From positions 186,001-250,000 of the forward strand of contig MEFP01000005.1 of assembly GCA_001725155.1 (NCBI GenBank): 64,000 nt of DNA, read 5' to 3'. The position numbers and the translations under genes were made by a program. The stretch comes from Lysobacteraceae bacterium SCN 69-320 (GTDB lineage: Bacteria; Pseudomonadota; Gammaproteobacteria; Xanthomonadales; Rhodanobacteraceae). Positions within the stretch are counted from its first letter, which is position 1; each line of letters begins with the position of its first letter. Below the pieces are notes generated by a model. That model was not told the origin of the DNA and made no database searches. It saw nothing but the letters and a program-made list of their open reading frames with translations. Below, in pieces: positions 30,459-41,894 of the stretch.

Positions 30459-31862
30459 TCAGTTATCCAGGAATGCCTGCCGCGACCGCCGCGGCGCGCG
30501 TTGCTTCGATTCCGCCGGCGGCGGCTGGGGATATGCGTCGTCCCAGTCTTCCAGGCGCATCTGGTCGAACCGGTTGCGCAGCAAGATCGTTTCGCCGAGT
30601 CGCAGGTTGCGGCCCTTCGCCGGGATCAGCTCGACCGTTCCGGCCATGTGGCTGTCGCGGTCGTAGTAGTCCTCGCGGTGCAGGAAGTAGATGGCGTCTG
30701 CCTTCTGCTCGATCTCGCCTGACTCGCGCAGATCGGTCAGCGTCGGGCGCTTGTCCTGGCGTCCGGCGACGTTCCGGTTGAGCTGGCCGAGCAGTACGAC
30801 GGGGCAGCGCAGCTCTTTCGCGAGCGTCTTGCAGCCCTGGACCACGTTGCCGAGCTCGTGCCGCAGTTCCTTCGTGCGGTCGACGCCCATGTCATGCAGG
30901 TGGTCGATCACGATCAACCGAATCGGCTCCCGCAGGTGCTCCCGCCGCGCACGGGCCATCAGCTGCTCGATCTTCAGGGCCGGCGTCTCGTCGATCAGCA
31001 GCGGCGCATTCGTGAGCTGGCCGGTCATGGCGTAGAGCCGCGACCAGTGCAGCTCGCTGTCGCCACCATCGACCGGGAAGTCGACCCAGCTGAATGGGAT
31101 TTCTCCGTGGCACGCCAGCATGCGGGCCATGCACTCGTCGCCGGTCATCTCGACTTCGAACACGGCGGCGCGGGCACCGCGCAGCGCCGTGAAACCGGCG
31201 AGCTGCAGGCCGAACGCGGTTTTCCCCATGCTTGGCCGCGCGGCCACGACGTAGACGCAACCATCGCGCAGCCCTTTCGTGTGCTCGTTCAGCGCACGCC
31301 ACGGCGTCGGCAGGCCGACGAGTCCGCCGCCCTGCTCGGCGTAGCGCCTCGTCATCTCGGCGACAAGGCGCTTGATCAGCGGCTTGGTCGGCTGCAGTCC
31401 GGTGCGCGCGTTGCTCGACTGCAGCAGGCTCAGCTCTTGCGACGCGACCGCCATGACCGCCTCGGACCCGGCGCCGCGGGCGAACGCCGCGGTCGCCAGA
31501 CTCGTCCCGACGTCGATTGCCCGGCGCAGCTGCGCCTTCTCGCGCACGATCTCCGCGTACGCGACGATGTTCGCTGCGCTTGGCGTCGTGTTGGCGAGCT
31601 CCAGGATGTACTTCACCCCGCCGACCAGATCGGCGATGCCCTGCGCGTCGAACCATTCGCCGAGCGTGACCGCATCGACCTCGTCGCCGCGCTGCGACTG
31701 CTCGCAGATCCCGCGGTAGATGACGCGATGGTCCTTGCGGTAGAAGTCGTCCTCGCGCAGCCAGTCGGCGATCAGCGCCAGCCGGTCCGGCGCGATCATC
31801 AGTGCGCCGAGCACGGCCTGCTCGGCCGGGACGTCATGCGGCGGCACCAGCGGCGCGCTCAT
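30459..31862 (-). CDS. dnaB: Replicative DNA helicase DnaB-like
   Basis: The product is 467 aa. The DnaB N-terminal domain is at residues 10-110 (AEQAVLGALM and DFYRKDHRVIYRGI). The RecA-like ATPase has Walker A AARPSMGKTAFG at 208-218 and a Walker B/sensor segment further on (IRLIVIDHLHDM). It should be loaded at the origin by the initiator encoded just upstream, whose stop it overlaps (ATGA). A host DnaB is certainly elsewhere, so this is the phage copy. Confidence 0.92.
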   Translation of the reverse strand: MSAPLVPPHDVPAEQAVLGALMIAPDRLALIADWLREDDFYRKDHRVIYRGICEQSQRGDEVDAVTLGEWFDAQGIADLVGGVKYILELANTTPSAANIVAYAEIVREKAQLRRAIDVGTSLATAAFARGAGSEAVMAVASQELSLLQSSNARTGLQPTKPLIKRLVAEMTRRYAEQGGGLVGLPTPWRALNEHTKGLRDGCVYVVAARPSMGKTAFGLQLAGFTALRGARAAVFEVEMTGDECMARMLACHGEIPFSWVDFPVDGGDSELHWSRLYAMTGQLTNAPLLIDETPALKIEQLMARARREHLREPIRLIVIDHLHDMGVDRTKELRHELGNVVQGCKTLAKELRCPVVLLGQLNRNVAGRQDKRPTLTDLRESGEIEQKADAIYFLHREDYYDRDSHMAGTVELIPAKGRNLRLGETILLRNRFDQMRLEDWDDAYPQPPPAESKQRAPRRSRQAFLDN

Positions 31863-32830
31863 GCCTCACCACCTTCCGGAGCGTGGTACTTGCCCTCGAT
31901 GACCTTCGCGAAGTTCGTCGGCCGGACCAGCCACTCGAGGTCTCCCTCGAACGGGCGGCGATGTTCGTCGTGCTCCTGGCCCATCAGGAACGGGCTCTTG
32001 CGGACGTACCCGAAGAATCGGCGCCACCAGCCCAGGTCCTGCCGCGCGGGCTTGCTGCGCCAACGAGCGCGCAGCAGCGATTTCCGCGTCTCGTTCAGCT
32101 CGACAATGCGGCGCCATTCCGGGAGAACTTCGTGGTAGACCGCCACGATTTCGGTATGCGGACACGGCGGCACGCCGACAGGCGTGTCCACCTCACCGTC
32201 AGGTGAGGAAGATTCTTCCCCTGTCTCCTGTCCCTCTCCACTGTCCCCTATCCCCTGTCCCTTTAGGGGCAGGGACTCCCCTGGGACGTCCCTGAGTTGT
32301 CCCTGCTCTTGTCCCTTGGATGTCCCTGGGGACGCACCTTGGGACACTGCGGGGACGTCCCAGCGATCGCTTCCGGTGCGCTCCATGTGTGCGCGCCAGT
32401 CATCGAACGTCGGATAGACGGGCGTCGCCCCGGCGCGCTGCGCGGCTTTCTTGATGCGCTCGCACTCGCGGCGATGCCTCAGCCGAAGCTTGCCGTCCCA
32501 GGCCTCGATGGCCTTCTCGGCGATCGTCGGGTGGTAAAGGCGCCCGTCACTGCACCGCACGAACCCGCGCAGTGCGCCGGTCCGCACGCGCATCCAGGAC
32601 TTCACGTCGCCGCGCCCGTAGCCCGCATAGCTCGCAAGCGCCGTGTCGTTGTCGGGCAGGCTGCCGGCCGGGACCTGGTGCCACGCGGTGCACCACAGCA
32701 GCACTGCGGCGCGGAACTCGTCGCCGGTGGCCTCGATCGCGAGATCGCTGTCCCGCAGCCGTGCGACCTGCAGCGGCATGAACTCGAAATCTCGCAGATC
32801 GATTTCGGCGGGGACCAAAGGCTCGGTCAT
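31859..32830 (-). CDS. Replication initiator-like protein, DUF1376
   Basis: The product is 323 aa. Residues 1-120 show the DUF1376 pattern (winged-helix-like, FEFMPLQVARLRD, LLWCTAWHQVPAGSLPDND). A low-complexity linker rich in Gly, Gln, Glu and Ser (about residues 165-215) is coded by the iteron cluster at 32229..32361. The C-terminal part has a WWRRFFGYVRKSPFLMG segment. It lies directly before DnaB, like O before P in lambda. It probably binds the origin inside its own gene and recruits DnaB. Confidence 0.75.
   Translation of the reverse strand: MTEPLVPAEIDLRDFEFMPLQVARLRDSDLAIEATGDEFRAAVLLWCTAWHQVPAGSLPDNDTALASYAGYGRGDVKSWMRVRTGALRGFVRCSDGRLYHPTIAEKAIEAWDGKLRLRHRRECERIKKAAQRAGATPVYPTFDDWRAHMERTGSDRWDVPAVSQGASPGTSKGQEQGQLRDVPGESLPLKGQGIGDSGEGQETGEESSSPDGEVDTPVGVPPCPHTEIVAVYHEVLPEWRRIVELNETRKSLLRARWRSKPARQDLGWWRRFFGYVRKSPFLMGQEHDEHRRPFEGDLEWLVRPTNFAKVIEGKYHAPEGGEA
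32229..32361. other. Iteron cluster, probable phage replication origin
   Basis: TGTCCC occurs as a direct repeat at 32229, 32242, 32256, 32298, 32310 and 32321, with spacings of 11 to 14 bases apart from one gap. A perfect 10-bp palindrome GGGACGTCCC occurs twice (32283-32292, 32352-32361) and one inverted copy GGGACA lies at 32341. The cluster is inside the initiator gene, as the lambda origin is inside O. An AT-richer patch lies to the left (32214-32228, ATTCTTCCCCTGTCT). Confidence 0.65.
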
Positions 32831-32833
32831 AGC

Positions 32834-33679
32834 CTACGCCCGCTTCACGATTTCGGCGATGGCGTGCATCACCGGCTTGCAGTGCTTGAACTGCGCAGCA
32901 AGCTGTTCGCTATTCGGATCGAACTCGCGCAGGAACTTATCCCGGATCTCCTCCGCGCCTTTCAGCCCTTCTCGGCTGGCGATGTCATTGAGAAGGTGCT
33001 CGAGGCGCCCGAGGAACAACCGAACGAACTGCGATCCAGCCTGCGATTGCGCTGGCTGCGACGGCGCCGTGTGACGCTGCTTCGCTGCAGCCGACAGCGT
33101 AATCGCCTTTTCCGTCATGGCTTGCCTGGCCTGCTTGCTCTCTGCGGCCACGATGCGGCGCTGCGCGTCGGGGTTCAGATGTGCAATGCGCTCTGCCTCA
33201 TTGACAGACATCTCCCCGGACTCAACCTTCGCAACCAGCTCCGGCGTTCCGTGGCTCTTGACGACGTTCGCGCGCTGAACTACTCGGCGGGACACGTTTA
33301 GCATCTCGGCCGCCAGCGGTTGAGGCACAGAAGGTGCGCCGATTGGCGCACCTTTTGAGTTCGCCTTTACGCCATCGGCGAGGTTGCTCAGCTTCGCTGC
33401 GATCATGGCGCGTTGAGATTCGCTGATATGCCGGCGACTCAGGTTCTCGCTGATGACGAAAGCAAGCGCGTCCTTTCCGACGAACTGCGTGAAGCGCGGC
33501 GCGACGCCGCACTCCAGGCACGCGCGGTAGCGATGTCGGCCGTCGAGGATCTTGCCCTCGTGCAGCACGATGTCGTGATGAAGGCCGTTGGCCTTTATGT
33601 CCGCGACGATGCCGCGGAATTGGTCCGCGGACATGTCGGGCAGGATCCTGCAGAGCTCGTGGAATTCGTACTGCATCAC
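32834..33679 (-). CDS. ParB-like protein (phage)
   Basis: The product is 281 aa. The ParB N-terminal box is clear: GIVADIKANGLHHDIVLHEGKILDGRHRYRAC (residues 23-53), and SENLSRRHISESQRAMIAAKL follows with a helix-turn-helix (LNVSRRVVQRANVV). The C-terminal part is long and helical. Phage ParB-like proteins may bind or regulate DNA, or act as CTPases. It is followed by the initiator gene and preceded, with an ATGA overlap, by a second DGQHR-type protein. Confidence 0.75.
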   Translation of the reverse strand: MMQYEFHELCRILPDMSADQFRGIVADIKANGLHHDIVLHEGKILDGRHRYRACLECGVAPRFTQFVGKDALAFVISENLSRRHISESQRAMIAAKLSNLADGVKANSKGAPIGAPSVPQPLAAEMLNVSRRVVQRANVVKSHGTPELVAKVESGEMSVNEAERIAHLNPDAQRRIVAAESKQARQAMTEKAITLSAAAKQRHTAPSQPAQSQAGSQFVRLFLGRLEHLLNDIASREGLKGAEEIRDKFLREFDPNSEQLAAQFKHCKPVMHAIAEIVKRA

Positions 33680-41088: not shown

Positions 41089-41894
41089 TGGCCCCGAAGC
41101 GCAAACCCAAGTCCGCGGCGGCCGCGGTTGTTGTCGCACCGGAGATGCCGGCAACCTCCCTCGTGCTGCGCTGCAGCCGTGCCGACGGCTCGTCGAAAAA
41201 CGGATTCGTCTGGCCGACCGTGGCCGGCGCCGAGGTCGTTGCCCCCGACTGGCTCGCGAACAACGAATGCGGGCACGGGCTGCATGGCTGGCTGTTCGGG
41301 GCCGGAGACCACACCTCTTCGAGCTACGCCGAGGATCCGAACGCGTTGTGGTACGTCCTCGAGGTCGTAACCACCGACATCGTCATGCTCGGCGGCAAGT
41401 GCAAGTTCCCGCGGTGCATGATCCGCTTCGTCGGCCCCCGCGGTGATGCGGCTGCCTACATGCTCGCGCACGAGCCGCGGTCGCGCGACGTCGCGGTCAT
41501 CGGCGCATGCCGCCAGGTTGGTGACACCCAGTCGGTGATCGTCGGCTACGGCGGCACGGCCACGGCCGGCGACGGCGGCACGGCCACGGCCGGCGACGGC
41601 GGCACGGCCACGGCCGGCTACGGCGGCACGGCCACGGCCGGCGACGGCGGCACGGCCACGGCCGGCGACGGCGGCACGGCCACGGCCGGCACCCGCGGCA
41701 CGGCCACGGCCGGCACCCGCGGCACGGCCACGGCCGGCGACGGCGGCGAGCTGCGGATCCAGTGGTGGGACGCGAAGGCTTCCCGCTACCGCACGGCGAC
41801 CGCATACGTCGGCGAGGACGGCATCAAGCCGAACACGCCGTACCGGCTCGACGCCAATCACAAGTTCGTCGAAGCGCCGAAGGGAGAATGCTGA
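41088..41894 (+). CDS. DUF7666-like protein with octapeptide repeats
   Basis: The product is 268 aa. Residues about 20-150 show a DUF7666-like core (VLRCSRADGSSKNGFVWPT, NNECGHGLHGWLF, CKFPRCMIRF). Then eight octapeptides G-x-x-GTATA follow, where the two variable positions are YG, DG or TR (residues 153-216), coded by 24-bp tandem repeats. The end is mixed alpha/beta. The regular TxT spacing could form a small beta-solenoid. It overlaps rdgC by TGATG. Confidence 0.7.
   Translation: MAPKRKPKSAAAAVVVAPEMPATSLVLRCSRADGSSKNGFVWPTVAGAEVVAPDWLANNECGHGLHGWLFGAGDHTSSSYAEDPNALWYVLEVVTTDIVMLGGKCKFPRCMIRFVGPRGDAAAYMLAHEPRSRDVAVIGACRQVGDTQSVIVGYGGTATAGDGGTATAGDGGTATAGYGGTATAGDGGTATAGDGGTATAGTRGTATAGTRGTATAGDGGELRIQWWDAKASRYRTATAYVGEDGIKPNTPYRLDANHKFVEAPKGEC
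41544..41735 (+). repeat. Eight 24-bp tandem repeats
   Basis: Eight in-frame units of 24 bp each contain ACGGCCACGGCCGGC. Codons 2 and 3 vary between TAC/GAC-GGC and ACC-CGC. A partial ninth unit follows. Nearly identical units suggest recent expansion by slippage or unequal crossing over. Confidence 0.9.

Follow-up and report, generated by a model that had tools for sequence, protein, structure and literature searches.

Why does a single prophage gene of Lysobacteraceae bacterium SCN 69-320 carry the same six bases, TGTCCC, again and again within 134 base pairs (bp)? The gene lies in a stretch of 64,000 nucleotides (nt) of contig MEFP01000005.1 (positions 186,001 to 250,000), hereafter called the window, and the repeats fall in the part that codes for the linker of a replication initiator. 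Very probably, they mark the replication origin of the phage, located inside its own initiator gene: the DUF1376 domain of the protein would bind the repeats, a neighbouring purine tract would open, and the C-terminal domain would hand over the helicase DnaB. The gene and the elements of the cluster are the following.

31859–32830, minus strand: initiator gene, an open reading frame for 323 amino acids (aa) with a DUF1376-type N-terminal domain, a linker and a C-terminal domain
32272–32361, unstranded: module 1, half-sites GGGAC(A/G) and (T/C/A)GTCCC around a central dyad (half-site map)
32321–32334, unstranded: central dyad TGTCCC-TG-GGGACG, with one mismatch to TGTCCC-NN-GGGACA (genome search, G000:C5:218321-218334)
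32283–32292, unstranded: palindrome GGGACGTCCC, two half-sites back to back (sequence search)
32352–32361, unstranded: palindrome GGGACGTCCC, two half-sites back to back (sequence search)
32213–32264 (gene nt 567–618), minus strand: module 2, a purine tract with GGGACA at 13–14-bp spacing, the highest-scoring purine segment of the gene

On the plus strand, TGTCCC starts at 32229, 32242, 32256, 32298, 32310 and 32321, and the two palindromes flank the second set of these direct repeats, all as described in the original prediction. The spacing, given there as mostly 11–14 bp, holds for four of the five steps between consecutive copies (13, 14, 42, 12, and 11 bp) and fails for the step of 42 bp. 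A seventh copy, absent from the earlier list, is located on the minus strand (32341–32346). The assignment of the repeats to the linker of a DUF1376 initiator also stands: the protein matches PF07120 (DUF1376) with 31.1 bits, a real but marginal match at a gathering cut-off of 30.1, and phrog_22470 'replication protein' at 3.4e-89. PF07120 was the sole domain in a Pfam scan of this protein, with no match to PF04492 (Phage_rep_O) or PF06970 (RepA_N).

Over the whole window, TGTCCC is not enriched (20 copies observed vs 22.8 expected). The cluster holds seven exact copies of TGTCCC/GGGACA in its 134 bp; dinucleotide shuffling of the window, repeated 300 times, yielded 3 at most. When the codons of the gene were shuffled synonymously, so that the protein was preserved, none of 5,000 recodings equalled the linker's seven copies, the mean being 1.28 and the maximum 6. 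Since both shuffle tests fall short, neither base composition nor protein sequence accounts for the cluster, and a chance origin was rejected.

The 5.71-Mb genome contains GGGACGTCCC in three places, two of them within this array. The third is G000:C15:43583-43592 (L003). The pattern TGTCCC-NN-GGGACA with at most one mismatch occurs in 5 places genome-wide, as does a reversed-pattern control; what sets this locus apart is the cluster, not a single dyad.

Module 1 spans gene nt 470–559 and comprises ten half-sites (at gene nt 470, 474, 485, 497, 505, 516, 528, 539, 543, and 554), mostly 11–12 bp apart and in one orientation, which meet at the central dyad. Module 2 lies downstream of it in the gene and contains the first three TGTCCC copies (32229, 32242, and 32256); Tandem Repeats Finder reports a period of 7 at 32217–32261. 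The suggestion of two binding modes thus survives as two modules, with the division redrawn: phased half-sites together with both palindromes (32272–32361) versus the purine tract (32213–32264).

Repeats in the relatives

Relatives were gathered with an N-domain alignment, from which we took, for viral sequences, the best 80 of 585 loci and, for named genomes, the best 80 of 201; a scan of viral contigs with the window protein as a single query found no relative. With 11 genes added by hand the set comprised 171 genes, 132 of which passed a shared-5-mer redundancy filter, and 130 remained after two genes under 200 aa were dropped. Because they were taken from the best matches, these 130 non-redundant genes are close relatives by choice and not a random sample. 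Those in named records belong to Alphaproteobacteria (31), Betaproteobacteria (25), and Gammaproteobacteria (9). PF07120 was matched by 117 of 119 relatives at E ≤1e-3.

Hexamers were counted without a preset motif, gene nt 361–720 being taken as the linker segment. The commonest repeated hexamer in the 130 relatives was GGGACA/TGTCCC. At least three copies were present in 80/130 linkers and in none of the 130 N-terminal or 130 C-terminal segments; the total numbers were 599, 19, and 15 copies, respectively. Nor are the repeats absent from the closest relatives: the four nearest on the N-domain tree (L042, L005, L026, and L106) each have a GGGACA/TGTCCC array of the same map type at the corresponding position.

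Most relatives use a face-to-face dyad, TGTCCC-N1/2-GGGACA, as the repeat unit, and not the back-to-back palindrome. With up to two mismatches allowed, 214 dyads were found in linkers and none in N-terminal or C-terminal parts. Face-to-face half-sites (up to one mismatch) were separated by a gap of 2 in 121 cases and of 1 in 25 cases, while each other gap from 0 to 12 was represented 0 to 5 times. Scrambled controls distant from the dyad yielded 15, 22, and 5 hits versus 219 for the dyad; those near to it in sequence, which overlap it by mismatch, yielded 93 (TCTCCC/GGGAGA) and 67 (TGACCC/GGGTCA).

Could these repeats simply reflect a flexible low-complexity linker, in which selection or slippage has favoured Gly/Gln/Glu-rich repeats with no function of the DNA itself? 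GGGACA encodes hydrophilic residues in all frames (GQ, GT, DR), and its unspaced tandem 6-bp copies could come from slippage. We nevertheless rejected this reading as very unlikely. The protein is no constraint that would maintain the cluster, as the synonymous recodings described above demonstrate. The dyads, moreover, are inverted, differ in their spacers and occur in all three reading frames: the 67 exact dyads, found in 46 genes, are distributed 23/23/21, and those with up to two mismatches 100/63/51. Identical dyad DNA is translated as CPxGQ, VPxD, or MSxG(T/Q) depending on the frame, and the tandem GGGACA part as GQGQ, GTGT, or RDRD.

Also the spacing follows the helix and not the codon. 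Among 138 steps between consecutive dyads, 94 measure 22–23 bp, 22 measure 33–35 bp, and 6 measure 45–46 bp; only 19 are divisible by three, and 21 bp and 24 bp together account for 3 cases. The arrays thus keep helical phase but not codon phase. Sequences between the dyads are diverse. Half-sites share 81% identity versus 57% for the intervening DNA and are the more alike in 431 of 452 pairs, which are non-independent and in which sites were chosen in one member, a choice that favours half-sites. Given dyads in three frames, at helical-turn spacing that is rarely a multiple of three, the repeats are a DNA signal. They offer a clean case in which selection at the DNA level overrides the reading frame inside a coding sequence.

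The signal was also approached from the opposite side. The pattern TGTCCC-N1/2-GGGACA-N8-10-TGTCCC was sought in viral contigs with no protein information, which returned at least 120 loci. Among the matches listed, the motif lay inside an open reading frame with a window-type domain in 98/120 loci; these correspond to 73 non-redundant genes, 49 of which are new relative to the 130. In a class-wide sample, PF07120 was detected in 8 of 274 genomes of the class (this genome included) and in 0/14 control genomes. Of nine genes taken from this sample, eight were usable (L398 was left out); GGGACA is not clustered in any of the eight (0 to 2 copies), and most are of the canonical YdaU type; GGGACA is therefore limited to one part of the DUF1376 family. 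YdaU-type phage proteins belong to the same Pfam family as the window type and form its sister group by domain sequence. They too have linker repeats, of other sequence, with a maximum of 1–2 copies of GGGACA.

Initiator domains and choice of repeat

The proposed mechanism assigns separate tasks to the two domains of the initiator and involves the gene next to it.

32426–32830, minus strand: N-terminal domain (aa 1–135), predicted winged helix, proposed to bind DNA (AlphaFold2, mean predicted local distance difference test score [pLDDT] 93.7)
31880–32176, minus strand: C-terminal domain (aa 219–317), proposed contact to helicase or loader (AlphaFold2, pLDDT 85.7)
30459–31862, minus strand: DnaB-type replicative helicase gene (PF03796, 1.1e-63; PF00772, 9.8e-31)

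The helicase gene does adjoin the initiator gene as had been claimed: its start (31862) and the initiator stop (31859) overlap by 4 nt on the same strand. The N-domain was modelled as helix-strand-helix-helix-strand-strand followed by a long helix (AlphaFold2). Staphylococcal RepA_N initiators were among its best fold matches, all of them weak (Foldseek ranks 1, 2, 5, 8, and 9; Z 4.0–4.6). Sequence searches of the PDB gave nothing useful and found no sequence relation to RepA_N initiators, and a fold search of solved structures (PDB) with the C-terminal domain model gave no match.

The type of repeat goes with the type of N-domain. On the N-domain tree, the repeat class (six classes) requires 28 changes versus 59.2 in shuffles, and 0/200 shuffles were as low. 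In other clades the layout is the same but built from different half-sites, among them CGGAAA, GTGAC, and CGTTAC. The C-terminal domains of the 80 array carriers, in turn, fall into 19 clusters. This domain is common to O-like phage initiators with different N-domains, and tblastn matches in lambdoid phages cover only aa 219–317. We identified 44 non-redundant genes in which the window's C-terminal domain is joined to another N-domain; none of them matches the window-type hidden Markov model, and none has more than one GGGACA/TGTCCC before the C-terminal domain. Pfam N-domains among these 44 are canonical DUF1376 (24), lambda-O PF04492 (2, a point of likeness to lambda), and HTH_36 (1).

A natural swap is seen between phages phi297 and vB_PaeS-D14H, in which the last ~413 nt of the gene are ~97% identical and the upstream part is unrelated, with the junction directly past the array. 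Module 1 of phi297 is of the GTGAC class, and GGGACA is present in its tract only. Judged from these sequence comparisons, the DUF1376 N-domain presumably binds the half-sites of the array. A Pfam domain 'of unknown function' would thereby gain a likely role that can be tested, and the DNA that it would bind is predicted to the base-pair level.

Linkers of EQEQEQ, DKDKDK, PSPSPS, ETETET, or PTPTPT type, with repeats of other sequence, were found in six genes that combine the same C-terminal domain with other N-domains (L186, L187, L188, L192, L195, and L196). Phage initiators may quite generally carry an array within the linker.

The purine tract

The best purine segment of the gene falls in the linker in 125/130 genes (77/80 array carriers and 48/50 others), and its score is at least 20 in 99/130 genes versus 7.1% of codon-order shuffles. 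The tract starts past the last TGTCCC in 54/59 genes. Canonical G-quadruplex motifs are present on the coding strand of 70/130 genes, all in the linker, versus 5.1 expected from codon shuffles and 6 on the template strand. The tract of the window does not match the canonical motif; a match is obtained only with loops of up to 12 nt.

Runs of GGGACA/GGGAGA also occur in the purine tract of other repeat classes (14/15 for GTGAC, 7/14 for CGGAAA, 0/7 for CGTTAC). The notion that every GGGACA is an initiator site was rejected on these grounds, and only TGTCCC and dyads are taken to mark module 1. Two or more copies of TGTCCC were found in 48/66 linkers of the GGGACA class and in 0/64 others. Module 2 is proposed as the site of unwinding or entry and probably has a different job from module 1.

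A broader and rather doubtful extension may be offered. Namely, the origins of these GC-rich phages might open not at AT-rich DNA but within a purine tract that is rich in G, has a fixed polarity and lies on the non-template strand; transcription of the initiator gene itself would favour an R-loop or G-quadruplex there. The phased DUF1376 array would then load the helicase, and the broad DUF1376 family would consist of origin-binding domains whose recognition sequence changes from clade to clade. If so, one stretch of DNA would serve as protein linker, helically phased binding array, and structure-forming opening site at once.

Known origins and the prophage setting

In the origin reading, the N-terminal winged-helix domain would bind the GGGACA/TGTCCC half-sites, which are phased with the DNA helix at about one per 11 bp in the window and form face-to-face dyads every 22–23 bp in most relatives. 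Such phasing would gather several initiator copies on the same face of the helix, and this complex could stress the neighbouring purine tract and thereby open it, upon which the C-terminal domain would hand over the DnaB encoded next door. By analogy, the plan is most likely that of lambda O and pSK41 Rep, and replication would start at the cluster.

In lambda, iterons lie in the middle of gene O with a special tract adjoining, and the N-terminal part of O binds these imperfect inverted repeats (PMC7466680). The likeness to lambda O and ori-lambda, and to the Stx phages, thus comprises an origin amid the initiator gene (a probable one in the window), inverted-repeat sites, and a tract beside them. 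The lambda-like layout put forward in the original prediction holds in this respect, with repeated sites inside the initiator coding sequence that are kept as DNA. The two systems differ in the N-domain (DUF1376 vs Phage_rep_O), in the sites (14-bp dyad or single half-sites vs a 19-bp iteron), and in the tract (purine/G-rich vs AT-rich); the window has a DnaB gene directly downstream in place of lambda's loader P. The Rep protein of staphylococcal plasmid pSK41 (RepA_N) is reported to have a winged-helix N-domain, Rep boxes centrally in rep, an origin-encoded linker, and a separate C-terminal domain, and pPR9 a natural swap of N-domain plus origin (PMC5703833). The window family resembles this account in its predicted winged-helix N-domain, a linker probably encoded by the origin, a separate C-domain, and a natural swap. 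It differs in belonging to a phage and not a plasmid, in its GC-rich sites, in the weak fold match, and in a C-domain that lacks a match among solved structures.

Literature searches for in-gene iterons found the lambda/Stx and RepA_N work and, within these searches, no description of DUF1376 origins. Repeats within an O-like gene are mentioned in passing in a Pseudomonas phage paper (PMC8508860). The plan itself is known, whereas the literature searched contains no description of the initiator domain, the dyad sites, their helical phasing across frames, or the tract of purines. A likely origin could be marked by sequence alone in prophages of alpha-, beta-, and gammaproteobacteria.

Regulatory roles are frequent among winged-helix proteins, and the initiator, once bound, could act as a repressor as well; the cluster might accordingly be an operator or other regulatory site within the gene, used for autoregulation or by a phage repressor. 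Present evidence does not separate replication from regulatory binding. However, the array lies far downstream of the start codon, and many phased sites with a directional purine tract, always in the linker of the initiator, correspond to the lambda and pSK41 origin plan. We therefore consider an operator quite unlikely.

Several observations weigh against an origin of the kind proposed. Three exact copies are missing in 50/130 relatives, many of which carry other repeats, and 25/130 are outside all five repeat classes, which were named only after inspection of the data. The window array is atypical in its direct half-sites at 11–12 bp instead of dyads at 22–23 bp. Fold similarity to initiators is weak, with a best Foldseek E of 0.15 and Z <5, and is level with that to unrelated winged helices. 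C-terminal clusters are also clustered on the tree (40 changes vs 52.5 in shuffles), which implies some co-inheritance of N- and C-domains, so that the linkage to the N-domain is not exclusive. No lambda-like AT-rich stretch was found, the mean AT content at the tract end being ~0.52 in the 80 array carriers. L395, the one further window-type gene in the class sample, lacks GGGACA. Finally, among the matches listed, 22/120 loci of the reverse search fall outside an open reading frame with the window-type domain. Four of these (L335, L338, L339, and L343) are no more than 130 nt away from the edge of the available sequence and have linkers of the same style. A PHROGs scan of 6 of the other 18 identified other replication initiators in four (L270, L283, L297, and L317) and no family in L318 and L334.

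Those four initiators have no window-type domain and yet the same TGTCCC dyads, by distant kinship or convergence.

Genes for terminase, portal, head protease, and tape-measure protein are present at 7–23 kb of the window, and CII-, Q-, and repressor-like genes were found near the initiator gene; together, they identify the element as a tailed prophage. The gene just upstream of the initiator gene (32834–33679) matches ParB-like phrogs, which raises the alternative of a centromere for this protein in place of an origin. A relative of that protein, however, is found beside 0/79 other array carriers (~2.5-kb flanks, phmmer E ≤1e-5), and a centromere was rejected as very improbable.

Within the ParB-like gene, GGTGCGCC-GATT-GGCGCACC followed by TTTT (33330–33357) resembles a hairpin with a T-run, as in a terminator. 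A hexamer cluster denser than that of the initiator gene occurs near 41.55 kb (41548–41700; CACGGC/ACGGCC, 12 copies in 134 bp) and is an unrelated short tandem repeat.
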